IMG/VR virus record: IMGVR_UViG_3300008516_001586
Span: 1 to 25,522 of that record
Direction: 5' to 3' (one strand)
From: a virus
Length of the DNA stretch: 25,522 nt
Positions 2,345-14,545 of the stretch are shown here, piece after piece. Both the position numbers and the translations under genes were made by a program. Numbering within the stretch: position 1 is the stretch's first letter; the number at the start of each line of letters is the position of its first letter. The notes below the pieces were generated by a model, which was not told the origin of the DNA, did no database searches, and was given only the letters and a program-made list of their open reading frames with translations.

Positions 2345-2650
2345 ATGCCTGAGAAGAATATCTGGGCTGAGAGGGCTGAAAAATGGTTATGGGATTCATG
2401 CGGATATGCGCCTGATATTTCTGTTGAAGAACTTGCGGAGTGGATGAAGAAGGCTGAGAAATACGATGCTTGGCTGATCGATAAAACAGATGGGGCCATA
2501 ATCACGATAAGCCAAGAGAAGTGGCAAGAATGTTTATCAGTATTAAAGAAACTTGAAGCCGTCAAGACATGGTGGAATATGTTCAACCAGTGCATAGACT
2601 CAGAAGCTGTCAAGGATAAACTTGAGGAGATTCTGGAGGATTCGACATAA
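2345..2650 (+). CDS. Trp-rich acidic small protein of unknown function
   Basis: This 101-residue protein has six Trp residues, a predicted all-helical fold, and clusters of acidic and basic residues (VEELAEWMKKAEKYDAW, WQECLSVLKKLEAVKTWW). No signal peptide, membrane segment or known motif is visible. It is first in a small unit after the capsid operon with its own candidate TATA box. GTTAGCAGG provides a weak ribosome site before ATG 2345. Its final codons include GGAGG (2635-2639), which can serve as the Shine-Dalgarno site of the zinc-ribbon frame overlapping its stop. A compact helical regulator or anti-host protein is possible, but nothing in the sequence decides this. Confidence 0.6.
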   Translation: MPEKNIWAERAEKWLWDSCGYAPDISVEELAEWMKKAEKYDAWLIDKTDGAIITISQEKWQECLSVLKKLEAVKTWWNMFNQCIDSEAVKDKLEEILEDST

Positions 2651-2748
2651 TCTGTCCGTTCTGCGGTTACGAGTGGAAGAACCGTGTGGTGAAGCCTAAG
2701 AGGTGTCCCAAGTGTCAGAAGTGGCTACCCCCCTGGAAAGATGACTAA
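2647..2748 (+). CDS. zinc-ribbon miniprotein starting at ATA
   Basis: A 33-codon frame encodes a complete two-knuckle zinc ribbon, CPFCGYEW...RCPKCQKW, with Cys at positions 3, 6, 20 and 23 counted from the ATA codon. It ends in TAA at 2746-2748. This is the archaeal type of small C-P-x-C zinc ribbon. The frame has a stop at 2623-2625 and no ATG, GTG or TTG between that stop and the first Cys. The ATA at 2647 lies 7 nt after a perfect GGAGG (2635-2639) and overlaps the previous stop as ATAA, just like the ATGA overlaps elsewhere in the window. ATA initiation is therefore the simplest reading. A -1 frameshift from the upstream gene is the alternative, but no XXXYYYZ slippery heptamer is seen. 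Likely a nucleic-acid-binding or regulatory miniprotein. Confidence 0.55.
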   Translation: MICPFCGYEWKNRVVKPKRCPKCQKWLPPWKDD

Positions 2749-3687: not shown

Positions 3688-3698
3688 ATTTTTATACG
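3688..3698 (+). promoter_or_regulatory. TATA box of the HNH gene at 3726
   Basis: ATTTTTATACG is centred about 32 nt before ATG 3726. No Shine-Dalgarno sequence precedes that ATG (CTAAGAGATAACT), so a near-leaderless transcript is expected. Confidence 0.5.
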
Positions 3699-4185: not shown

Positions 4186-4905
4186 ATGTCCAAAACGAAA
4201 CAACTTAAAGATAACCTTCGAGTATTTGTTGGCGTCCCTTTTCTCGGGACGGGGGCTCGTTGCGAGTCTTTCATCCCCAAGGCTATCAGTTCGATAGAGA
4301 CTCAGAGGACAGGCATCAGGATGCTCTCTCCATGGGTCACCTCCCCTGCCTCCATGAGGGGAAGCCAGAGGGATCTCGTTGCTGCTAAGCTGAATGACAT
4401 CGTCGACAGATTCCTTAAGACGGATTGCACCCATGTATGGCTTGTGAACGCCGACTGCGAGTTACCGCCGGATGCGCTTGAGAAATTGATCCGCCTTGAT
4501 GTTGATATTGCCAGCGGTGTGTCTCCTACGCATAGTGACTGGAACGAGACGACTGCTGCTTGGGAGATTCTAGGGGGAGGACTCAGGTTCTACCGCCGGA
4601 TGGATTTGGAGGATAAGGTCGTTGGCGAGAATGAGGTTGTCACGACAGGCAACTTCTGTACCTTGATTAAAAGGCGTGCTCTTCTTCAATATTCACCACA
4701 CCATGAACCTTTGAAGTATCAGATAATGAGGGAGCGGCAATATATTTACGGTCCAGAACTCCAGTTCTTTATAGACGCCCAGAAGATGGGGTTCTCCGTT
4801 CGGATTCATGGGGGAGTAATGTGTGGTCATCTCCCTGAGTGGCCTCTATCCTATGAGGGACATGAGGACACTCTATTCAAGAAGATAAGGGGATTGAAGT
4901 CATGA
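4186..4905 (+). CDS. GT-A fold glycosyltransferase (GT2-like)
   Basis: This 239-residue protein starts the glycan island. RVFVGVPFLGTGARC is the first strand and loop of a nucleotide-binding GT-A fold. CTHVWLVNADCELPPDALEKLI holds the metal/nucleotide region with an NAD(90)C variant of the DxD motif. VTTGNFCTLIKRRAL and YGPELQFFIDAQKMGFSVRIHGGVMCGH are the acceptor-side strands and the terminal His seen in this family. ATG 4186 is preferred over the in-frame ATG 4141, because the latter would overlap the HNH gene by 38 nt and adds residues unlike the family start. It overlaps the next glycosyltransferase by ATGA. It probably transfers a sugar from a nucleotide donor; donor and acceptor are unknown. 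Confidence 0.8.
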   Translation: MSKTKQLKDNLRVFVGVPFLGTGARCESFIPKAISSIETQRTGIRMLSPWVTSPASMRGSQRDLVAAKLNDIVDRFLKTDCTHVWLVNADCELPPDALEKLIRLDVDIASGVSPTHSDWNETTAAWEILGGGLRFYRRMDLEDKVVGENEVVTTGNFCTLIKRRALLQYSPHHEPLKYQIMRERQYIYGPELQFFIDAQKMGFSVRIHGGVMCGHLPEWPLSYEGHEDTLFKKIRGLKS

Positions 4906-5708
4906 ATACCCCTGAGGTAGGGGTTCTCGTTGCGACGCTGGGGCGACCCTACTATATCGATCAGGTTATGAGAGCAATCTTCAGAACCAAAATTCCTCTG
5001 AAAGTCCGCTTGGTCAACCAAGGTGACACGAGTCCCAAACAGATGGAAGCTCTGAAGGGGTGGCGGGGCAGATGGGATGTAGAGATAGTTGACAATCCAG
5101 AGCCACGGAAACTCTCAGAGGTCAGAACAGAGGCGATGCAGGCCTTCAAAAGAAGATACACGTATATGGTGACCCTTGACGATGACATCTTCCCACACAT
5201 TGGAAGCATTGAAGCCCTGATCTGGGCATTAAAGAAAAACCCACAGTACCACGCCATAGCAGGCGGCATCATCCAGAAAGGCATGAACCGAATGCTTGGC
5301 GGCTACATAACCCACGAAGAGGGTGAAACACAGCACCATGTTCTTCCCTTGATAAAGCAAACTGCGGAGGTACACTTCGTATCCTCAGGCTTCACAGCCT
5401 TCAGACTAGACCCGCTTATCCCATACGACACAGAATACGAGTTTGGATGGAACGATTGGGATTGGAGCCAAGAGATAAAGAAGGCGGGGCTTCGGATGGC
5501 TGTCTGCGGAGACGCCATGGCCCACCATAAATACTTAGTCACCTCTAAAGGCATAATACCCTGTTATGACAGCGTCGAGTATTATCGACTGCGTCAAAAT
5601 ACTGAGCGTCATAAAAGATCAGCTGACAGATTCAAAAAGAAGTGGGGCTTCAAACCAGCTCAGCCAAAACTATGGGATAAACCTATTCTCAAGGCACTCC
5701 CCCAATGA
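4902..5708 (+). CDS. glycosyltransferase family 2-like (copy A of a pair)
   Basis: This 268-residue GT-A enzyme has VGVLVATLGRP at the N-terminus (first Rossmann strand), PLKVRLVNQGDTSPKQM, and the metal-binding TLDDDIFP with D93-D95. An acceptor-binding GFTAFRLDPLIPYDTEYEFGW comes next, then NDWDWSQEIKKAGLRMAVCGDAMAHHK. It ends in a basic FKKKWGFK segment. The same framework, at the same positions, recurs in the gene at 6535, so the two are paralogues separated by another transferase. The start overlaps the previous stop as ATGA, with GGGG upstream. It is expected to add one sugar in a short virus-encoded glycan. Specificity cannot be read from the sequence. Confidence 0.85.
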   Translation: MNTPEVGVLVATLGRPYYIDQVMRAIFRTKIPLKVRLVNQGDTSPKQMEALKGWRGRWDVEIVDNPEPRKLSEVRTEAMQAFKRRYTYMVTLDDDIFPHIGSIEALIWALKKNPQYHAIAGGIIQKGMNRMLGGYITHEEGETQHHVLPLIKQTAEVHFVSSGFTAFRLDPLIPYDTEYEFGWNDWDWSQEIKKAGLRMAVCGDAMAHHKYLVTSKGIIPCYDSVEYYRLRQNTERHKRSADRFKKKWGFKPAQPKLWDKPILKALPQ

Positions 5709-6538
5709 AGAGTCTCAATCATTCCGAGGCCCCGTATGTTGAGATAGTTCGTGTTCAGAAGATAGAGTCGCCTATCTATTCCGTCGTCGTGCCAGTTGGT
5801 AACCTTTACGGCGCGAGGGTGAGGAACTGCCTGAGGAGCCTTCAGCTTCAAACCGTGGGAAGCCTTGAGGTAATCGTGGTTGACTACGGCTCCACTCCTG
5901 AGAATCACAGACAGTTGATGGTGACGCTTGAGCCTTTCGACTGCACCGTGTTCCGCTTCCCAACCAAGGACGCATGGAGTATGTCACTCTCGCGGAACAT
6001 TGGGCTGAGGAGGGCGAAAGGCGAATACGTTGCGACATTAGACGCAGACTGCGTGTTGATGCCCATAGTTCTTAAATTCACCCTCAACATTCACAGGGAG
6101 ACGCCTCGGCTGATCATGATGGCACCATACTATTTAGACGAAAACGTTGAGATTGAATACATAAATCTACCTAGAGACTATGAGAGGCTGAGAGCTGGTA
6201 ACCCGAGGTATCTCAAAAGAAGTATCGGAGGGTTCATGAGTGCGCCGCGAAGCTGGTGGCTGAAGGTGAGGGGATTCGATGAGAGGATGATGATGTATGG
6301 CTGTGAGGATGGAGACCTATGTAGACGAGCTGAGATAGACCCTGAAATAGAGAACTACGTAATAGAGGAAAACTGTGCGCCTGACATAAGGTTCTACCAT
6401 CAGTGGCATCCTCCGATGAGGCTACACAAAGCAATTGGGGAGGAGGCCGTGAACCGTCAATACGAGATAAATCGGCTGATCAAGAAAAGCGAGTATTCAA
6501 TCAGGCGGAATACTGGTGATTGGGGTATGATGGTGTGA
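5705..6538 (+). CDS. glycosyltransferase family 2, chondroitin-synthase/GalNAc-T-like layout
   Basis: The 277 residues show YSVVVPVGNLYGARVRNCLRSL (first strand and helix of GT2) and LEVIVVDYGSTPENH (nucleotide-binding loop). SLSRNIGLRRAKGEYVATLDADC follows, with a true DxD at D113-D115. IGGFMSAPRSWWLKVRGFDE comes next, then MYGCEDGDLCRRAE, the ED catalytic region. HQWHPP near the end resembles the His of the C-terminal galactosyltransferase-like segment. This is the most classical GT2 of the island and all key motifs are present. ATG 5705 overlaps the preceding TGA (ATGA) without a clear ribosome site, so translational coupling is likely. It probably acts in sequence with its three GT-A neighbours. 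Confidence 0.87.
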   Translation: MKSLNHSEAPYVEIVRVQKIESPIYSVVVPVGNLYGARVRNCLRSLQLQTVGSLEVIVVDYGSTPENHRQLMVTLEPFDCTVFRFPTKDAWSMSLSRNIGLRRAKGEYVATLDADCVLMPIVLKFTLNIHRETPRLIMMAPYYLDENVEIEYINLPRDYERLRAGNPRYLKRSIGGFMSAPRSWWLKVRGFDERMMMYGCEDGDLCRRAEIDPEIENYVIEENCAPDIRFYHQWHPPMRLHKAIGEEAVNRQYEINRLIKKSEYSIRRNTGDWGMMV

Positions 6539-7290
6539 AGCCCAGAGTTGCAGTGGCCGTTCTGACGCTGAAGCGACCCCAGTTCCTAAGCCAGTGCCTC
6601 AGGAGCATTACGAGGACAGAGATCCCTATCAAACTCTTTCTAGTCAACCAGAATGACGAGAGCGAGGAGCAGATGAAGGTAATTAAGGAGTGGCAAGGCA
6701 GGCCAGAGGTGAAATATATACTCAACAAACCTGCGAAGTGGCCTGGAGCAGCTAGAGGCACAGTCTTCACGTTGTCGCACAACATGGGCTATGAATATGT
6801 TGTGACCGTGGATGATGACTGCTGCCTGCTTCCTGGCGCTATAGAGAGCTTAGTAAAGGCGGCGGACTCGCACCCTGAGTTTCATTCCATCTCTGGTTTC
6901 CTCATAGACAAGAGGAGAAGATACATGTTGGGTGGAAGGAAGATCCCACATACATACGGGATCCACTACAGAAACTACGAGTGGATGCCTGGGGTTCACA
7001 AGGCTGACTATGTGAGCAACGGCTTTCGGCTGATAAGGCTGAATCCGCTTGTCATTCCCGACCCGAACTACGAGATCGGTCTAACAGATTGGGATTACGC
7101 CAACAAGTTGGAGGTTCGGGGCCTGAAGATGGCGGTATGTGGCGACGCTGGAGCCTATCACAAGCTCATGAATGTTGATGGACAGATGAAGTGGGTGCCC
7201 AATCCTCCAAGCTACAAGAGAGGGTCCCCTAGTATGACTGAACGGATGAACAACTATTTTATGAAGAAATGGGGCTACAAGGTGAAGTAA
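6535..7290 (+). CDS. glycosyltransferase family 2-like (copy B of a pair)
   Basis: This GT-A enzyme of 251 residues is paralogous to the gene at 4902. VAVAVLTLKRPQFLSQCL aligns with VGVLVATLGRP. IPIKLFLVNQNDESEEQMKV aligns with IPLKVRLVNQGDTSPKQMEA. TVDDDC, GLTDWDYANKLEVRGLKMAV and NYFMKKWGYK also match. GTG at 6535 is chosen: GGGGT (6522-6526) lies 8 nt upstream, it overlaps the previous stop as GTGTGA, and it puts the DDD triad at residues 93-95, exactly as in copy A. An in-frame TTG at 6520 is the alternative. The pair suggests duplication followed by divergence to add different sugars or act on different acceptors. Confidence 0.85.
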   Translation: MKPRVAVAVLTLKRPQFLSQCLRSITRTEIPIKLFLVNQNDESEEQMKVIKEWQGRPEVKYILNKPAKWPGAARGTVFTLSHNMGYEYVVTVDDDCCLLPGAIESLVKAADSHPEFHSISGFLIDKRRRYMLGGRKIPHTYGIHYRNYEWMPGVHKADYVSNGFRLIRLNPLVIPDPNYEIGLTDWDYANKLEVRGLKMAVCGDAGAYHKLMNVDGQMKWVPNPPSYKRGSPSMTERMNNYFMKKWGYKVK

Positions 7291-7845
7291 ATGAAAACAG
7301 ACCTAAAAAATAGGCGTGGAAACCGTTTTCTCGGTCAGAGGATTCAGCATAGCTATGCAGAGATCTCTTTCATAGACCAGGTTCTTACAAAGGAGACATT
7401 CAAGACACTAATCGAGTTCGGGACGGCGAAGGGCGGCTTAAGCCTCCTCTTCGGCCTGCACGCCCTCAGGGTAGGCGGACACGCATATACCTTCGATGTA
7501 TCAATTGAGCCTTGTCGGGATCTTTATGTCAAGCTAAAGCCTATGATACCATTGACCTTTCTAAAGATGGATGTGCTGTCAGACAAGGCGATGAAAATCA
7601 TCCCAAAAATCGTCGGGAGAGGCCGAACCCTGATCTACTGTGACGCACAGAAGAAAAAGGAGTTCAACCTCTACGCGCCGCTCCTCAAGAAGGGAGACGT
7701 GATAATGGCTCACGACAAGGGCACAATAGAGATCCGTTACGCGGACATAGTGGAGACTGTGAACAGGATCGGACTCAAACCGTTCCATCAGGACGCCGCT
7801 GACGAGATGGGAACGATAATATTCAGCTTCATAAAGGAGGAGTAG
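7291..7845 (+). CDS. SAM-dependent methyltransferase, CmcI/cephalosporin-hydroxylase-like
   Basis: This 184-residue Rossmann protein carries LIEFGTAKGGLSLLFGLHAL (G-rich SAM-binding loop from I41) and GGHAYTFDVSIEP (acidic residue after strand 2). RTLIYCDAQKKKEFNLYAPL and KKGDVIMAHDKGT, the strand 4-5 region with a putative metal-binding HD, follow. The layout is that of the CmcI-like family found in glycan and antibiotic loci, where members act as sugar O-methyltransferases. It lies between a glycosyltransferase and an FkbM methyltransferase. ATG 7291 directly follows the previous TAA, with AAGGTGA upstream. Its last codons, AAG GAG GAG TAG, double as the ribosome site of the next gene. O-methylation of a sugar is the likely reaction. 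Confidence 0.7.
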   Translation: MKTDLKNRRGNRFLGQRIQHSYAEISFIDQVLTKETFKTLIEFGTAKGGLSLLFGLHALRVGGHAYTFDVSIEPCRDLYVKLKPMIPLTFLKMDVLSDKAMKIIPKIVGRGRTLIYCDAQKKKEFNLYAPLLKKGDVIMAHDKGTIEIRYADIVETVNRIGLKPFHQDAADEMGTIIFSFIKEE

Positions 7846-7847
7846 GT

Positions 7848-8561
7848 TTGAGGGTTGTGAAAGAGGTGAATGTAGCTGGAAGACGGTTCAAGTTGCACCT
7901 TGACATGGAGGACGCGACCTCCCAGCCTGTAATATTTCAGACGGGACGATGGGAGCCGAGAATCACTGCCTTTCTCTTGGAAAATCTAAAGCAGGACATG
8001 ATCTTCATAGATGTCGGGGCGGCCATCGGCTGGTTCACCATCATAGCCTCGTCGCTGGTCGGTGAAGGAGGAAGGGTGATAGCGTTCGAGCCAGCGCCCA
8101 ATAGATTCAAGACTCTTGTTGAAAATATGATGCTGAACACAGATGGAAACGTTGAGTGCGTTGATAAAGCCGTTTCAAGCGAAAACGGTGAGGCATACAT
8201 AAGCGGAGAAAAATATCCAATGTATTTGTCAAGTTCAGGAAACGGTTTTAAAATTAATGTCCCGATAGACATGGTTACTCTTGACTCGTATCTGAAGATG
8301 AGGGGTGTTGAGAAGGTGGATATGGTGAAGATAGATGTCGAGGGGTCTGAACTCAGGGTGCTGAAAGGTATGGAACAGACGATCAGGAACAGCGGCAAAA
8401 TTAAAATCATCTGTGAGGTTCACCTTCCATATCTAAACAGATACGGGGATAACATAAACCAGCTATTTGAATATACGCAGACAATGGACCTGAGAAAACA
8501 AAGATTAACTGGAGGAAAAACGGCGCAAGCACCGCGCTACCTGTTCTACAAGGAGGAATAG
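7848..8561 (+). CDS. FkbM-family methyltransferase
   Basis: This is a 237-residue class I SAM methyltransferase of the FkbM family. MIFIDVGAAIGWFTIIAS (M51 onward) is motif I with an uninterrupted DVGAxxG. GRVIAFEPAPNRFKTLVENM is motif II with the family's FEP signature. MVTLDSYLK and VDMVKIDVEGSELRVLKGM carry the KIDVEG(x)E hallmark. KIKIICEVH is the final strand. FkbM enzymes O-methylate sugars or polyketides and are typical of glycan clusters. TTG 7848 is the start: AAGGAGG lies 7 nt upstream, in the last codons of the previous gene, and no ATG is suitably placed. The junction to the next gene is a near-exact repeat of the junction at its own start. Confidence 0.9.
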   Translation: MRVVKEVNVAGRRFKLHLDMEDATSQPVIFQTGRWEPRITAFLLENLKQDMIFIDVGAAIGWFTIIASSLVGEGGRVIAFEPAPNRFKTLVENMMLNTDGNVECVDKAVSSENGEAYISGEKYPMYLSSSGNGFKINVPIDMVTLDSYLKMRGVEKVDMVKIDVEGSELRVLKGMEQTIRNSGKIKIICEVHLPYLNRYGDNINQLFEYTQTMDLRKQRLTGGKTAQAPRYLFYKEE

Positions 8562-8563
8562 GT

Positions 8564-9166
8564 TTGAGCAAGAGTACAGCTGAAGAGAAGTGGTGGGAGA
8601 ACCACTACTCCAGAGGCGGGCACAGCGGTCCTGGCTCCATCGGAGAACACCGTAAATGGAAATGGGGAATTATAGAGGAATATGTCTCTGAGGTGAACCA
8701 TGTAATAGATGTGGGCTGCGGGGATCTCACCTTCTGGGAAGACCACGACTGTAACGACTACATAGGCATAGATTTCTCAAACACAATCATAGAGAGGGAT
8801 AGGAAGGAGAGACCCCATTGGAAGTTCATCCTACACCACGCCGAGGACAGGATAGACGGGCTACACGCCCCAGTAATCTTCTGCTTCGACGTTCTTATCC
8901 ACCAGATGGATGAAGAGGTTTTCATGAAGATACTGGAGAACCTCTGCTACTACTCCACAGACCTCATACTTCTATACAACTGGGTCAAACCCAAACCTGG
9001 ACGCGGAGTGACAGACGGCGTAATCCATTACTTCCGTCCCCTTGAAAAACATATGAACATCTTCAAGAGAGGCGGATTCAAACTCATCGATAGGAGAGAC
9101 GGAGACCCAGGGGATCATAACAAGCGGGGCGCCATATACATCTTCAAACGGGAGAAAAGGAGATGA
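8564..9166 (+). CDS. class I SAM-dependent methyltransferase
   Basis: This 200-residue protein has an aromatic N-terminus (AEEKWWENHYSRGGHSG) often seen in small-molecule methyltransferases. VIDVGCGDLTFWED (V47 onward) is motif I, YIGIDFSNTIIERD is motif II, and HHAEDRIDGL precedes CFDVLIHQMDEEVFMKIL. KPGRGVTDGVIHYFRPLEKH and FKRGGFKLIDRRD are the late strands. The VIHYFRP segment after a flexible loop probably shapes the substrate site. TTG 8564 is the start, with AAGGAGGA 6-7 nt upstream inside the previous gene. It overlaps the following GT-B gene by 4 nt. A sugar or lipid-carrier acceptor is likely, given the context. The exact methyl position is unknown. Confidence 0.85.
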   Translation: MSKSTAEEKWWENHYSRGGHSGPGSIGEHRKWKWGIIEEYVSEVNHVIDVGCGDLTFWEDHDCNDYIGIDFSNTIIERDRKERPHWKFILHHAEDRIDGLHAPVIFCFDVLIHQMDEEVFMKILENLCYYSTDLILLYNWVKPKPGRGVTDGVIHYFRPLEKHMNIFKRGGFKLIDRRDGDPGDHNKRGAIYIFKREKRR

Positions 9167-10041
9167 AAATTGCACTCTTATGCCCTGAAGGAAGACGGCG
9201 GTGGGCTTTCACCTTCATCATGGAGGACTTTAAAAAATTCGTTGATAGACCTGACTATATCTTTGATCTGATCAACACCCAGAAGATCACAGAGAACCTC
9301 AGGGAATACGACTGGATAATCAGCCCACTGCTCGGGCAGGCCACATATGACACCGAGCTCTTTAAGGAGGAAATCCGCCCCCACTTCATCGCTTGGCTTG
9401 GAGGGATGAAGACCTACGGCAGGATAAAGGATTGGAGCATCTTCAAATATGTGTTCGCTCAGTCCAGTTCCCTGATCCACGACAAACTCAGGGACACGAC
9501 CTTCTTCATCAGACCCACAGGCGTAGACATAAACATGTTCCGACCCCTGAATATCCAGAAGAAACACTTCGCTGGAATCACTGGGAGAGCCATACCCCAG
9601 GATAACTGGAAAAGTAGGTCGGAGCGGATAGATACGTGGTTCAGCCCCATCTGTAGGTATGCGAATGTTTCAAGCATTATCTTGGATACGAGAGGCAACT
9701 ACGCTGTTCCACGTGAGCAGATGCCAAGGCGATACAACCAATTACACACCTATCTATGCACATTCATGTCGGCTGGGGGGCCACTGACGCTTCTTGAAGC
9801 CGCAAGCTGTGGCTTGCCCATCATCTCAACGGATGTAGGGTATGTCAGGGATGGTCTGATAGATGGCAATGGATTCATCTGCAACACTAGGAAGGAGTTT
9901 ATTGACGCGCTCATCTACCTGAAGGAGAACCCAGATAAAAAGCTTAGAATGGGGGAGAGAAGCAGGGAGCTTGTGCTTAAGAACTGGACTTGGGAGAAGA
10001 GAGCGGAGGAATGGATCACAACCATTGAGGAGCTGAGTTGA
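9163..10041 (+). CDS. GT-B fold glycosyltransferase, family 4-like
   Basis: The 292 residues form a compact two-domain GT-B enzyme. MKIALLCPEG is the first strand. KYVFAQSSSLIHDKL and FIRPTGVDINMFRPLN (P118-T119-G120 region) are the hinge signature common to GT4 enzymes. SAGGPLTLLEAASCGLPIIS (P207, E212), continuing to STDVGYVRDGLIDGNGFI, is the donor-nucleotide site with the first Glu of the EX7E motif. It is shorter than usual GT4 enzymes (about 350-400 residues), mostly in the N-terminal acceptor domain. ATG 9163 overlaps the previous TGA as ATGA. As a retaining enzyme it would complement the inverting-type GT-A enzymes upstream. Confidence 0.85.
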   Translation: MKIALLCPEGRRRWAFTFIMEDFKKFVDRPDYIFDLINTQKITENLREYDWIISPLLGQATYDTELFKEEIRPHFIAWLGGMKTYGRIKDWSIFKYVFAQSSSLIHDKLRDTTFFIRPTGVDINMFRPLNIQKKHFAGITGRAIPQDNWKSRSERIDTWFSPICRYANVSSIILDTRGNYAVPREQMPRRYNQLHTYLCTFMSAGGPLTLLEAASCGLPIISTDVGYVRDGLIDGNGFICNTRKEFIDALIYLKENPDKKLRMGERSRELVLKNWTWEKRAEEWITTIEELS

Positions 10042-10058
10042 GTGCGCGTGCATAACCA

Positions 10059-10856
10059 ATGATAAAAAAGCAGAACATCCAAGGGGAAACTTGGGATAAT
10101 TTGATAATATTGGATGCATGTAGATTTGACTTTTTTGAGAAAATATATAAAGAGTATATGGATGGAGAGCTAGAAAAAAGAATTAGTAAAGGATCAAATA
10201 CAGGTGAATGGCTTGCGAAAACATTTCCAGATAAATATGACTATACTTACATTTCCGCAAATCCATATATAAATAGTTACGGAGTTTCTCTCAATAGATG
10301 TCGCCCAGAATATAGAAACTATTCATGGAACGCAGTTGAACATTTCTCAAATATTATAGATGTATGGGAATTTGGATGGAAAGAAGAAGTGGGCACAATT
10401 CACCCAAAGGAAGTAAACAAGGCTTATTTATCAAATAAAGATAATAATAAAACGATAATACATTATGTTCAACCTCATTACCCATATTTATCTTACGGAG
10501 GGGTTTTTGGAATAAGAAACAAGGTAAACATCTTAAAAGATGAACCTATCAACTATAAACAAAAACTGAAAAAGAATAAATTAGTTGAGCCTATTAAAAA
10601 GCTACCTAGATTAAAGAAAATTCAAGTAGAAATTGGACTAGATAAACTATTTTACTATTATGAAGATAACTTAAGAACCGTGTTGAAACATGTTTCCCAC
10701 TTAACAGCCTACCTGAATGGAACGACAATAATAACAGCAGACCATGGAGAAGCTTTTGGCGAAGAAGGTGTTTGGGAACACCCTATAGAAACACATATCC
10801 CTGTATTAATAGAAGTTCCATGGTTAGCCATACATAGTAAAAGAGTTGATAGATGA
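10059..10856 (+). CDS. sulfatase/alkaline-phosphatase-superfamily protein, AT-rich outlier
   Basis: This 265-residue protein has NLIILDACRFDFFE near its N-terminus (D19, C21, D24) and ITADHGEAFGEEGVWEHP near the end (D228, H229, E231). These are the two metal-site halves of sulfatase-fold hydrolases and transferases. The DACRxD form is common in archaeal surface-polysaccharide loci. YISANPYINSYGV and IIHYVQPHYPYLSYG are further family-like segments. The classic CxPxR formylglycine motif is absent, so a phosphatase or phospho(sugar) transferase role is as possible as a sulfatase. No signal peptide or membrane segment is seen. The gene is strikingly AT-rich against both neighbours and lacks a clear ribosome site, suggesting recent acquisition. 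ATG 10059 is the first Met of the frame. Confidence 0.75.
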   Translation: MIKKQNIQGETWDNLIILDACRFDFFEKIYKEYMDGELEKRISKGSNTGEWLAKTFPDKYDYTYISANPYINSYGVSLNRCRPEYRNYSWNAVEHFSNIIDVWEFGWKEEVGTIHPKEVNKAYLSNKDNNKTIIHYVQPHYPYLSYGGVFGIRNKVNILKDEPINYKQKLKKNKLVEPIKKLPRLKKIQVEIGLDKLFYYYEDNLRTVLKHVSHLTAYLNGTTIITADHGEAFGEEGVWEHPIETHIPVLIEVPWLAIHSKRVDR

Positions 10857-11429
10857 ATGAGCAAACAAAAATCTCCACGGGCCCAAGACCTTGCCGCCGC
10901 TATCGTCGAGACACAGCACCTCAAAGGCGACTTTGCGGAGGCAGGAGTATATACTGGCAACAGCGCACAAGTAATCTGTGCAGCAAAGGGAAACAAACCC
11001 CTCCACCTATTCGACACGTTTAAGGGATTACCTGGATCACTGTTTGAACCTATTGATTCATCCACTGAGGTGGCTCGATTTCATGTAAAGCCGGGCATGT
11101 ATGCGGCTTCCTTAGAGAGAGTTAAGGAGAGACTAAAACACTACCCGAACGTTTTTTATTATCCAGGTCTATTCCCAAGCACCGCAAAACCTCTGAGACA
11201 TAAGACCTTCGCTTTTGTCAATCTAGACCTAGACCTTTACAGATCCACGCTTGATGCCTTGAATTTTTTCTATCCTCGGTTGAATATAGGTGGAATTATC
11301 ATATCTCATAATTACACGAACCTGCCAGGCGTTAAAAAGGCGTTTGACGAGTTTTTCAAAGCCAAACCCGAGAAAATAAAGATAATAAGTGACTCTCAAT
11401 GTATAATCAAAAAATTGGGGGGAAGTTGA
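10857..11429 (+). CDS. TylF/MycF-family methyltransferase homologue
   Basis: The 190 residues fit macrocin-O-methyltransferase (TylF) relatives: GDFAEAGVYTGNSAQVICAA (SAM loop), KPLHLFDTFKGLP (the FDTFxGLP hallmark), and FPSTAKPLRHKTFAFVNLDL followed by DLYRSTLDALNFFYPRLNIGG. KKAFDEFF lies near the end. Known members O-methylate deoxysugars and use Mg2+ bound by Asp residues, including the DD of an IIIDDYG segment. Here that segment reads IIISHNYT, with H151-N152 in place of the two Asp. The enzyme may therefore use a different metal arrangement or be inactive. ATG 10857 directly abuts the previous TGA. GC content returns to the island level here, in sharp contrast to the sulfatase-like gene just before. 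Confidence 0.8.
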   Translation: MSKQKSPRAQDLAAAIVETQHLKGDFAEAGVYTGNSAQVICAAKGNKPLHLFDTFKGLPGSLFEPIDSSTEVARFHVKPGMYAASLERVKERLKHYPNVFYYPGLFPSTAKPLRHKTFAFVNLDLDLYRSTLDALNFFYPRLNIGGIIISHNYTNLPGVKKAFDEFFKAKPEKIKIISDSQCIIKKLGGS

Positions 11430-12416
11430 ATAAGAATCCTATTTTTAACTCGGAACGGGGAGGGCTGTGTGGGTGCTCCTAGCGCTTACCACGGATTTGA
11501 GATGGCCGTCGCCAAAACCGCTGACTGCCTTTGGGCAGGAAAAGGGTGGTCGCTCCATAGAGAGGGAGAAGAGATGAATGAGACGGTTGAAAGGCTATAT
11601 GGAGGCGATCCACCTGACTGGGTGGTTGACAACAAAAATGATAGCTTCAAAACCCCGAAGCGGAGAGATTACCGGGTATGCGTGTTCATCAGTGATCTGC
11701 ATGGAAAATACAACTGGAGAATCAGAAACGCGACGGGATTCATAGAACTCCTAAACAAGGCTGGATATGACACCGTTTTCATGAAGTACATGTACGTGCA
11801 TGGCGTTCCCGAGGTAGAAAACATATACCTCCAGTCGCTTGAGGCTAAGCCGCTGTTCCTCCCATGGAGCATTGATCCAGAATACTACCGACCCCTGAAG
11901 AAGACGATTGATACATGTTTCCTCGGCGCCATTGGAGGGCACTACTACCCTATGAGACAAGCCATCTACGAAGATCTCCCAGACTTATGCAAGATGCATG
12001 GGTTTGACTATGTGATGAGAACGTCCCCCCCAGGAAAAACTTATCAAAGGAGAGTTGACAAGCTGATTAGGGATCATTACGTGGGGGAAAGATATGCAAA
12101 AGTGCTGGGGCAGAGCAGGGCTCTTATATTCGGCTCTGGTATCCATGTCGGCCCCGTCCAGAAGCATTTTGAAGGAAGGGCATGTGGATGCTTGGTCATG
12201 GTGAACGAGCCGTCCGAGGCCGAGGAACTCGGCTTTGTGGATGGGGTAAATTACGTTAAGATCGGTCTAGGGGATTGGAAGGAGAAGTTGGTTTATTATG
12301 CCAAGCATAGGGAGGAAGCTGAGGAGATCGCATTGAATGGGCGAAGGCTGATCCTAGAGAGGCACACACATGAGATCAGGGCCCGAGAGTTCATGGAGAT
12401 GTTGAAGAATGGTTGA
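11430..12416 (+). CDS. GT-B glycosyltransferase, CgeB-like, starting at ATA
   Basis: From ATA 11430 the frame encodes 328 residues beginning (M)RILFLTRNGEGCVGAPSAY, an unmistakable first strand and loop of a GT-B enzyme. The first conventional start, GTG 11469, would remove that strand. The preceding in-frame codon is the TGA of the upstream gene, and GGGGGGA (11417-11423) lies just before, so ATA is the best start. Further family features are RVCVFISDLHGKYNWRIRN, PLFLPWSIDPEYYRPL (hinge), DTCFLGAIGGHYYPMRQ, and HFEGRACGCLVMVNEPSEAE continuing to GFVDGVNYVKIG (donor site). These match CgeB/DUF3880-like proteins of surface-glycan loci. It overlaps the next gene by 8 nt. The product is likely cytosolic. 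Confidence 0.8.
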   Translation: MRILFLTRNGEGCVGAPSAYHGFEMAVAKTADCLWAGKGWSLHREGEEMNETVERLYGGDPPDWVVDNKNDSFKTPKRRDYRVCVFISDLHGKYNWRIRNATGFIELLNKAGYDTVFMKYMYVHGVPEVENIYLQSLEAKPLFLPWSIDPEYYRPLKKTIDTCFLGAIGGHYYPMRQAIYEDLPDLCKMHGFDYVMRTSPPGKTYQRRVDKLIRDHYVGERYAKVLGQSRALIFGSGIHVGPVQKHFEGRACGCLVMVNEPSEAEELGFVDGVNYVKIGLGDWKEKLVYYAKHREEAEEIALNGRRLILERHTHEIRAREFMEMLKNG

Positions 12417-13179
12417 CCCAGAATTTGGAAGGGATGTGAAGATAGGGAGGAATGTCACGATCAATGTCACGGAGCACATCAGCATAGGGGACAGGTCCGT
12501 GATCAACGACGGCGCCATCATTGAGGGAAGACATATCGATATAGGACGCGAGGCTTGGCTCGACAAGTGCGCGTATATAGGCGGGGGAAGCTGCTTTGAT
12601 TTGCAGTCGAAGCTCATAGCTGGCGATTGGCTTCATATGGGTAAAGGCAGCCACATAAACACGGCGAGGGAGGTCATTATCGGCGACGAGTGCGGCGTCG
12701 GCATCGGCACCAAAATCTTCACCCACGGAGCATACCTGTCAGCCTACGAGGGGTTCCCCGTCACGTTCAAGAAGGTCTCCATCGGGGACAGGGTTTGGCT
12801 TCCCCACGCTTGGGTCAACCCTGGCGTTCACATAGGAAGTGATGTGGTGGTGGCGGCGATGAGCCTAGTGAACAGGGACCTGCCAGCGGGCTGCCTCGCC
12901 GGAGGCATACCCGCCAAGGTTCTGAAGGAGAATGTCTACCCTAAAAAGCTGACACTGAGAGAGAAGACCCTGTTTGTGGACCGCATAGCCGCGTATCTTC
13001 AGCTCCCTTTCCGGCTTGACAAGGGGGAAATCAGGTTCAAGGACACCATCTTCAACATGGAGGAGAGAACCATCGAGGGCCCCTCCACCGAGGAGACGGA
13101 GAGGATCAAGAATCAGCTACGCAGACACGGCGTCCGGTTCCGGTTCTACGCGGACGAAGGAGAGTATCGGCCTTGGTAG
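12409..13179 (+). CDS. left-handed beta-helix acyltransferase (hexapeptide repeat)
   Basis: The 256 residues open with repeated [LIV]Gxx hexapeptides (VKIGRNVTINVTEHISIG, VIIGDECGVGIG, VSIGDRVWLPHAWVN, VHIGSDVVVAAM) that build a left-handed beta-helix. GIPAKVL, the typical end of the CoA-binding coil, follows. A loop FTHGAYLSAYEGFPVTF carries the likely catalytic His, as in galactoside/maltose-type O-acetyltransferases. The C-terminal 80 residues are helical and charged, with no recognised fold. A sugar O- or N-acetyltransferase is the expected function, paired with the deacetylase whose remains and restart follow. ATG 12409 lies inside the end of the previous gene. The 3' end overlaps the remnant PIG-L start at 13173. 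Confidence 0.85.
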   Translation: MVDPEFGRDVKIGRNVTINVTEHISIGDRSVINDGAIIEGRHIDIGREAWLDKCAYIGGGSCFDLQSKLIAGDWLHMGKGSHINTAREVIIGDECGVGIGTKIFTHGAYLSAYEGFPVTFKKVSIGDRVWLPHAWVNPGVHIGSDVVVAAMSLVNRDLPAGCLAGGIPAKVLKENVYPKKLTLREKTLFVDRIAAYLQLPFRLDKGEIRFKDTIFNMEERTIEGPSTEETERIKNQLRRHGVRFRFYADEGEYRPW

Positions 13180-13229
13180 TCGTGGCGGTAAGTGCCCATC
13201 CAGACGAAGAATTTATATTATCTGGATGA
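13173..13229 (+). pseudogene. remnant 5' end of a PIG-L deacetylase
   Basis: From TTG 13173 the sequence reads (M)VVVAVSAHPDEEFILSG and then TGA (13227-13229). VVAVSAHPDEEF is the N-terminal strand and metal motif of PIG-L/LmbE deacetylases (AHPDDE). The frame overlaps the acyltransferase end by 7 nt, and AAGGAG lies about 10 nt upstream, the normal layout for a translated gene start. It stops after 18 codons, just before the HNH gene. A second PIG-L start follows that HNH gene with the same VVAV.AHPD residues but different wobble bases. It is probably the upstream half of a gene split by the HNH cassette, or of a lost tandem copy. Confidence 0.6.
13210..13219 (+). promoter_or_regulatory. TATA box of the HNH gene at 13242
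   Basis: ATTTATATT is centred 27 nt before ATG 13242, so the transcript would start at or next to the ATG (leaderless). The box lies within codons of the PIG-L remnant (EFIL) and is absent at the matching place of the downstream copy. Confidence 0.5.
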
Positions 13230-13241
13230 ATCCGAAGTATT

Positions 13242-13904
13242 ATGCGTGAACGAACAGAAACAATGAATTGTCTTGGTTGTGGGGAACAATTCTTTATTTA
13301 TCCATATGAAAAAGGAAAAAGAAAGTATTGCTCTCAAGAGTGTTATCGGAAATATTCACAAAACAGGAAGATCCCCCCACCTTTTATACCCAATAGAACA
13401 ACAATTAAAAAATGCCAGTGGTGTGGAAAACCCTTTTTATCAGATCCTCGAAGAAATAAATGCCATAAGTTCTGTTCAGAGAAATGTCAAAAAGAACATG
13501 GTCATCACTCCAAATTCAAATCGAAAGAAGAATGGGAAAAATCACGTATTAAAATATGTCCTATTTGTGGTAAAGAGTTTAAAACAATAAGAGGCAACAA
13601 GCAAAAATATTGTTCCAAAATATGTTCTGGTTTAGTTCGGATGAATAGACAACGAGTCAAGAGATATATCGCAAATATAAAAATTACGGAAATAGGAGAA
13701 TGCGAAATATGTGGCTTTAATGTGGTTCTTGAAGGGCATCACATCATATCTCCGATAAACGAAGATGGCAGTTATAATGAGGATGCAGATGACCCCGCAA
13801 ACATAGTTGTTTTATGCCCTAATCACCATACTATGATTCATAAGGGTATTATTAGAGTTGAAAGAGATGAGGCTGGTGTGTTGGAGGTGATGAGAATTAA
13901 ATGA
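13242..13904 (+). CDS. HNH endonuclease with three N-terminal zinc fingers
   Basis: This 220-residue protein contains three tandem CxxC fingers. CLGCGEQF pairs with KYCSQEC, CQWCGKPF with KFCSEKC, and CPICGKEF with KYCSKIC. A C-terminal HNH core follows: CEICGFNVVLEGHHIISP, then NIVVLCPNHHTMIHKG. Fingers would give DNA specificity and the HNH domain cleavage, as in phage homing endonucleases. The gene is clearly more AT-rich than the genes around it and has its own TATA box with no ribosome site. It sits between a PIG-L remnant and a second PIG-L start, overlapping the latter by ATGA. An in-frame ATG at 13263 is a possible alternative start, giving MNCLGCGEQF. Confidence 0.88.
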   Translation: MRERTETMNCLGCGEQFFIYPYEKGKRKYCSQECYRKYSQNRKIPPPFIPNRTTIKKCQWCGKPFLSDPRRNKCHKFCSEKCQKEHGHHSKFKSKEEWEKSRIKICPICGKEFKTIRGNKQKYCSKICSGLVRMNRQRVKRYIANIKITEIGECEICGFNVVLEGHHIISPINEDGSYNEDADDPANIVVLCPNHHTMIHKGIIRVERDEAGVLEVMRIK

Positions 13905-14545
13905 CTGTTGTTGCTGTAGGAGCACATCCCGACAGGGTCTGAGATCGATCTCTCTTGCCCCGGGAAGATGTAGAGTTCGGCTGCTATGGTACGTTGGCGA
14001 AGCTGAGCAAGACGCATGAGATCCATATCTTTATCTTCAGTGCCGGGGAACTCGGGGGGCCGAGGGAGACTAGGATCAAGGAGGCGGAGGCGAGCGCGAC
14101 CCTTATAGGTGCCGAGGTTACGGTGTTTGGCTACATGAATGGGAAGATCCCCGTTGACGCCGACTCCGTGGAGATCCTCAAGAAGCGGATCGATGTCCTA
14201 AAACCAGATATAGTGTTCGCTCCCTACCTTGAGGACACGCATCAGGGACATAGGGCGGTGTCAAGGATCGCCGTCTCGTCGTGTAGATATGTGCCTAAGG
14301 TTCTGTTCTATGAGCTGCCTCAGACGGAGCGGTTTGAGCCAAACTACTATGTCGATGTCACAGAGCACTTCGAGGTTAAGGCGAAGGCGGTGAGGTGCCA
14401 CAGAAGCCAGGAGCACAGGCCCTACTATGACATAGAGGGGATCAGGGGGCGGGCTGCGGCACGTGCGTTTAAGGCGTTCCATCCGGGTAGGCTGTTCGAG
14501 GCATTTGTCCTATACCGGCTTATTGAGGGAGCAGGTGAAACCTGA
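13901..14545 (+). CDS. PIG-L/LmbE deacetylase interrupted by a 33-nt in-frame insert with a stop
   Basis: ATG 13901 gives MTVVAVGAHPD, then 33 extra nt including TGA (13940-13942), then DVEFGCYGTLAKL in the same frame. Removing the insert restores the canonical AHPDDVEFGCYGTL of this family. The rest is complete: IHIFIFSAGELGG, EASATLIGAEVTVFGYMNG, PDIVFAPYLEDTHQGHRAVSR (the third zinc-ligand His region), and a C-terminal YRLIEG. PIG-L enzymes remove N-acetyl groups from GlcNAc-type sugars using Zn bound by the HPDD motif and this His. Without removal or bypass of the insert only 13 residues are made from ATG 13901. Restart at TTG 13955 would lack the first half of the metal motif. The start overlaps the HNH stop (ATGA). 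Confidence 0.75.
13934..13966 (+). other. 33-nt insert splitting the HPDD codons of the deacetylase
   Basis: The insert lies exactly between GAC (13931-13933) and GAT (13967-13969) of the HPD|D motif. It contains TGA at 13940, a perfect 12-bp palindrome GAGATCGATCTC (13941-13952, foldable as GAGA-TCGA-TCTC) and CCCGGG (13959-13964). GGG at 13935-13937 could pair with CCC at 13958-13960, closing a weak outer stem. Its origin is unknown. Candidates are a ribosome-bypass element, a small spliced intron, or an inactivating scar. Confidence 0.6.

Follow-up and report, generated by a model that had tools for sequence, protein, structure and literature searches.

The conserved start position of a GT-B-type glycosyltransferase gene (11430–12416 on the plus strand, stop codon included) in the 25,522 nt viral sequence analysed here, referred to as the window, is nucleotide 11430 as judged by sequence comparison, and the gene model should begin there. 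The codon at this position (11430–11432, plus strand) is ATA, and it aligns with the ATG start codon of an orthologue (L002 8265). It is a probable, inefficient and non-standard start (an ATN start codon), such as has been described in bacteria before, and the evidence leans towards its really being used.

The ATA lies directly downstream of, and in frame with, the TGA stop codon of the preceding gene (11427–11429, plus strand). From 11430 the sequence reads ATA AGA ATC CTA TTT TTA ACT CGG AAC GGG GAG GGC TGT GTG, opening the protein IRILFLTRNGEGC. According to the list of open reading frames, the frame contains no ATG, GTG or TTG between the TGA and the GTG at 11469–11471 (plus strand), which is 13 codons after the ATA and is the first canonical start. 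The frame remains open for 328 codons to a stop ending at 12416, and the gene is otherwise intact. A stretch resembling a Shine-Dalgarno (SD) sequence, GGGGGGAA (11417–11424, plus strand), is found upstream of the ATA within the 3′ end of the preceding gene, and the predicted duplex UGGGGGGAA (from 11416) has an energy of -9.5 kcal/mol at a spacing of 5 nt. All SD energies were computed against an assumed anti-SD sequence, AUCACCUCCU.

A single close viral relative was found, the 55 kb IMGVR_UViG_3300031539_000039 (L002; G001), and its orthologue of the glycosyltransferase shows 87% protein identity over the full length. In the relative the gene begins ATG AGG ATA CTG TTT TTG ACT, directly after a TGA, and encodes MRILFLTRNGEGC, so that the gap between stop and start is zero in both genomes (TGA-ATA in the window, TGA-ATG in the relative). 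The window ATA and the ATG of the relative align without an indel, which rules out an origin by indel (TTG ATA with an extra A). Codons 2–13 of the two genes differ at six bases, all six of them synonymous, and residues 2–13 are identical; if the protein were under no selection, such a pattern would arise with a probability of about 2e-4 to 1e-3. Over the whole gene there are 72 synonymous versus 42 replacement codon changes. Protein scans and a degenerate DNA scan of viral contigs, and searches of genome contigs and phage records, gave no orthologues beyond this relative.

More distant homologues are encoded on Priestia megaterium plasmids (WP_252288418.1 and WP_252285732.1; about 26% identity, E-values down to 3e-19), and these align over residues 1–322 of the window protein. 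They begin MKRLKVLFLTRD and MKRLKILFLTRD, and like the window protein carry the LFLTR strand at the N-terminus, but their genes start with ATG. The C-terminal domain (residues 204–322) matches Glyco_trans_1_2 (PF13524; E-value 4e-12) with 46.7 bits against a curated cutoff of 25, and in a profile search of solved structures the C-terminal half alone was matched. AlphaFold2 run on a two-sequence alignment gave a mean pLDDT of 33, which is not usable for judging the fold. The RILFLT residues are presumably the first Rossmann strand, as the GT-B family and the alignment suggest. Taken together, the position aligned with the ATG of the relative, the N-termini of the Priestia proteins and the exclusively synonymous changes argue that the conserved N-terminus begins at 11430. 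The initial annotation had described an ATA directly following a TGA and leading into the RILFLT codons, and had placed the start of the protein there and not at GTG 11469. The sequence of 11427–11471 bears out the description, and the orthologous ATG and the conserved strand bear out the start position. RILFLT is conserved at both short (the 87% identical orthologue) and long (Priestia, about 26%) distance, and homologues lacking the N-terminal strand, which would have spoken against this start, were found neither in the relative nor in Priestia.

The genes upstream of the ATA differ between the two genomes. BLASTN blocks covering 8572–10044 and 11414–13207 of the window are contiguous in the relative, where, going by the order of open reading frames, the orthologue comes right after a neighbouring glycosyltransferase gene, identified by Pfam and corresponding to 9163–10041 (plus strand). 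Two plus-strand genes occupy the intervening segment of the window and are missing at this place in the relative: a TylF-like methyltransferase gene (10857–11429; PF05711, E-value 2e-20), directly upstream of the ATA, and a gene with weak PglZ/Sulfatase resemblance (10059–10856; PF08665, E-value 0.019, and PF00884, E-value 0.05, both below the Pfam cutoff). The ATA thus abuts a junction. Six bases, AGTTGA, are common to both edges of the extra segment (10036–10041 and 11424–11429, plus strand), and the segment was either gained in the window lineage or lost in the relative. The TylF-like protein ends a few residues past the end of its relatives in two other viral contigs (L004 and L005), and these extra residues encode the SD-like sequence.

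If translation began at GTG 11469, a protein of 315 residues lacking the first 13 would be produced. This start has a canonical codon and a stronger SD, GGGGAGGG (-10.6 kcal/mol at a spacing of 4 nt, compared with -9.5 for the ATA), so it is conservation and not SD strength that favours the ATA. The same GGGGAGGG stretch, however, encodes an NGEG motif that is identical in the relative, whose ATG sits 39 nt upstream of it. A start at the GTG would also discard the fully conserved residues 2–13, whose codons show synonymous changes only, and would remove a strand that is kept in the Priestia homologues, making it quite unlikely. Read-through of the TGA would give a fusion of the TylF-like methyltransferase with the glycosyltransferase and make a separate start unnecessary. 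Both genes do share a frame with no other stop between them, but a shared frame has a one-in-three chance of occurring, TGA terminates many other genes here, and the TylF relatives on the two other contigs end at nearly the same residue. In the relative, moreover, the orthologue stands as a gene of its own and follows another neighbour, and we regard read-through as extremely improbable.

The remaining explanations concern the codon itself. A recent loss of the start, in which ATG mutated to ATA and little or no product is now made, would mean that the conservation of the N-terminus reflects past selection. The only close orthologue known carries ATG, and the synonymous pattern is compatible with a very recent change. 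Against this, nothing else disrupts the 328-codon frame, an SD is retained 5′ of the ATA, and the relative has another gene with a start of this type (described below); we consider start loss unlikely. A sequencing or assembly error at 11432 would require only one base, as ATA and ATG differ by that much, and the true codon would then be ATG. Consensus errors are presumably rare and would have to strike a start codon, the nearby differences from the relative look biological, being synonymous throughout, and the independent ATA start lies on another contig, all of which make an error highly unlikely. Use of the ATA at 11430 as a start remains the preferred reading.

Precedents for such starts come from bacteria. 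In Staphylococcus aureus, AUA start codons of infC, ccpN and citZ have been mapped by ribosome profiling, and in reporters for ccpN and citZ the AUA gives about 10–30% of the AUG product (PMC13009471). As in the window gene, the AUA sits where the protein starts, a short distance behind a strong SD. The AUA of ccpN is kept between species, whereas that of the glycosyltransferase is not conserved in its sole close orthologue (ATG), and the window start is a proposed one. An ATG-to-ATA variant of rpoS in E. coli O104:H4 continues to produce the protein, though up to 5-fold less of it (PMC12864459). It arose by a single G-to-A change in a gene otherwise intact, like the change assumed for the window, but it is a laboratory mutation of a chromosomal gene, while the window case is a natural viral gene beside a stop codon. 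ATA starts are usually weak, with up to 1% of ATG activity in E. coli in the figure that PMC12864459 quotes from Hecht et al. 2017, and in archaea the factor aIF1 works against starts other than AUG (PMC6237735).

The ancestor probably had a TGA with an ATG right behind it, as the relative does, and it is simpler to suppose that ATG became ATA than the reverse. The third base of the start would then have turned into A in the lineage of the window, beside the junction left by the gain of two genes here or by their loss in the relative. A ribosome finishing the TylF-like gene would stop at the TGA with the SD-like GGGGGG already near the tail of its 16S rRNA. The terminating ribosome, or a small subunit held by the SD, might then let initiator tRNA pair with the neighbouring AUA, though less efficiently, and the protein yield would be below that of AUG. 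We infer that the AUA is used, that its use is coupled to termination, that the yield is lower, and which way the codon changed. Termination-reinitiation coupling is known in both archaea and bacteria (PMC6728339), and the coupled pairs considered from that work resemble the window in having adjoining stop and start codons with an SD inside the upstream gene. Those pairs are overlapping arrangements such as ATGA and TGATG, and coupling to an ATA start is not among them. The suggestion in the initial annotation that stop-start coupling may underlie the tolerance of ATA fits the geometry (a gap of zero). In the relative, however, an ATG follows the TGA in just this layout, so coupling need not be the reason.

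To see whether tolerance of ATA extends further, both genomes were scanned at the starts of genes for in-frame non-canonical codons behind an SD. Beyond the glycosyltransferase and a zinc-ribbon ORF in the window, one further strong case was found, a sulfatase-like gene of the relative (G001:C1:658-1362; L013 658-1362; PF00884, E-value 6e-17, domain from residue 7). From G001:C1:655 onward its frame reads TAG ATA AAT AAC GCA GAG AAG AAT CAC ATC CTT TTA GGT ATG GAC TCC. The first canonical start, ATG, falls inside a conserved N-terminal strand, NHILLGMDSCRWD, and a Mesorhizobium homologue begins MVNHIVWVIFDSARYD. The ATA at 658 overlaps the TAA of the preceding gene and is preceded by the SD UAGGCAGGUGG (-10.8 kcal/mol, spacing 6 nt). 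The screen demanded a strong SD, so it is the homology and not the SD that counts as independent evidence, and by this comparison ATA 658 is likely the start of the gene.

The zinc-ribbon ORF (2647–2748, plus strand) has an in-frame stop at 2623 and no ATG, GTG or TTG up to the first CxxC. Its ATA at 2647 overlaps a TAA (2648–2650) as ATAA, and follows the SD UGGAGGA (-9.3 kcal/mol against the assumed anti-SD, spacing 6 nt). Searches of the relative, of viral contigs and of phages and plasmids gave no homologue of it; from its sequence, a start at ATA 2647 is possible, and ATC 2650 would serve as well. Of the two ATA starts that the initial annotation had proposed for the window, the position of the one in the glycosyltransferase gene stands, while the one in the zinc ribbon, for which no homologues were found, is possible.

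SD-spaced in-frame codons without a neighbouring canonical start include five ATA among an estimated 40–50 sites, where about one would be expected. This enrichment test was post hoc and at least one to two of the five ATA are spurious, being followed by a usable canonical start, and it is given little weight. For the remaining clear orthologous pairs shared by the two genomes, starts of ATG, GTG or TTG suffice; this comparison set aside the PIG-L gene, whose 5′ end is broken in the window.

Two weaker candidates for other start codons are present in the relative. A fragment resembling the C-terminal part of Mu-F (reverse complement of G001:C1 24549-25049) is open from 24582, in frame and 33 nt past the stop of the preceding gene, contains no ATG, GTG or TTG in its first 63 codons, and has an ATC with a strong SD as a possible start. 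A small zinc-ribbon ORF (KIPPKRCPRCG...; reverse complement of G001:C1, about 10397-10574) has no ATG, GTG or TTG at its 5′ end but an SD, CGGAGG, 5′ of CTG codons, one of which is a possible start.

Together the two related genomes, with about 120 genes, yield three ATA candidates. Tolerance of ATA in this virus group, as the initial annotation had suggested, is plausible from these sequences, with the sulfatase-like gene of the relative adding an independent third candidate. It is a more doubtful proposition that start selection is generally relaxed in this tailed-virus lineage (probably archaeal) and its host, with ATA, and perhaps ATC and CTG, working given a strong SD and an upstream stop.

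TATA-box-like TTTTTATAC sites occur at 2775–2783 and 3689–3697 of the window, about 30 nt upstream of the genes at 2814 and 3726, and suggest archaeal-type promoters and an archaeal host. A search of genome contigs with the capsid protein, aimed at the host, gave no matches, and the putative terminase and another protein of the relative gave mixed phage matches. A cassette at 4186–14545 of the window, with the capsid gene on one side and the tail genes on the other, contains glycosyltransferases, methyltransferases, a hexapeptide-repeat acyltransferase and a PIG-L deacetylase; it may function in glycan synthesis for the virion or host surface. The PIG-L deacetylase gene (13173–13970) is interrupted close to the 5′ end, where two partial PIG-L 5′ ends flank an HNH endonuclease gene (13242–13904), and the second of these is followed by a 33 nt in-frame insert containing a TGA (13938–13970, edges approximate) that folds into a bulged hairpin and is absent in the relative. 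One may think of decay, of a mini-intron, or of a bypass element close to a homing endonuclease.

Gene finders restricted to ATG, GTG and TTG would trim the N-terminal 13 residues off the glycosyltransferase and 12 off the sulfatase-like protein of the relative, and would miss the zinc ribbon entirely. The peptides ILFLTR or NGEGCVGAPSAYHGFEMAVAK could not arise from a start at GTG 11469. As a single case, ATA 11430 is mainly a correction to a gene model. If ATA starts do prove to be common in this group, these viruses would offer a natural setting for examining how strictly initiation rejects non-AUG codons beside a site of termination.
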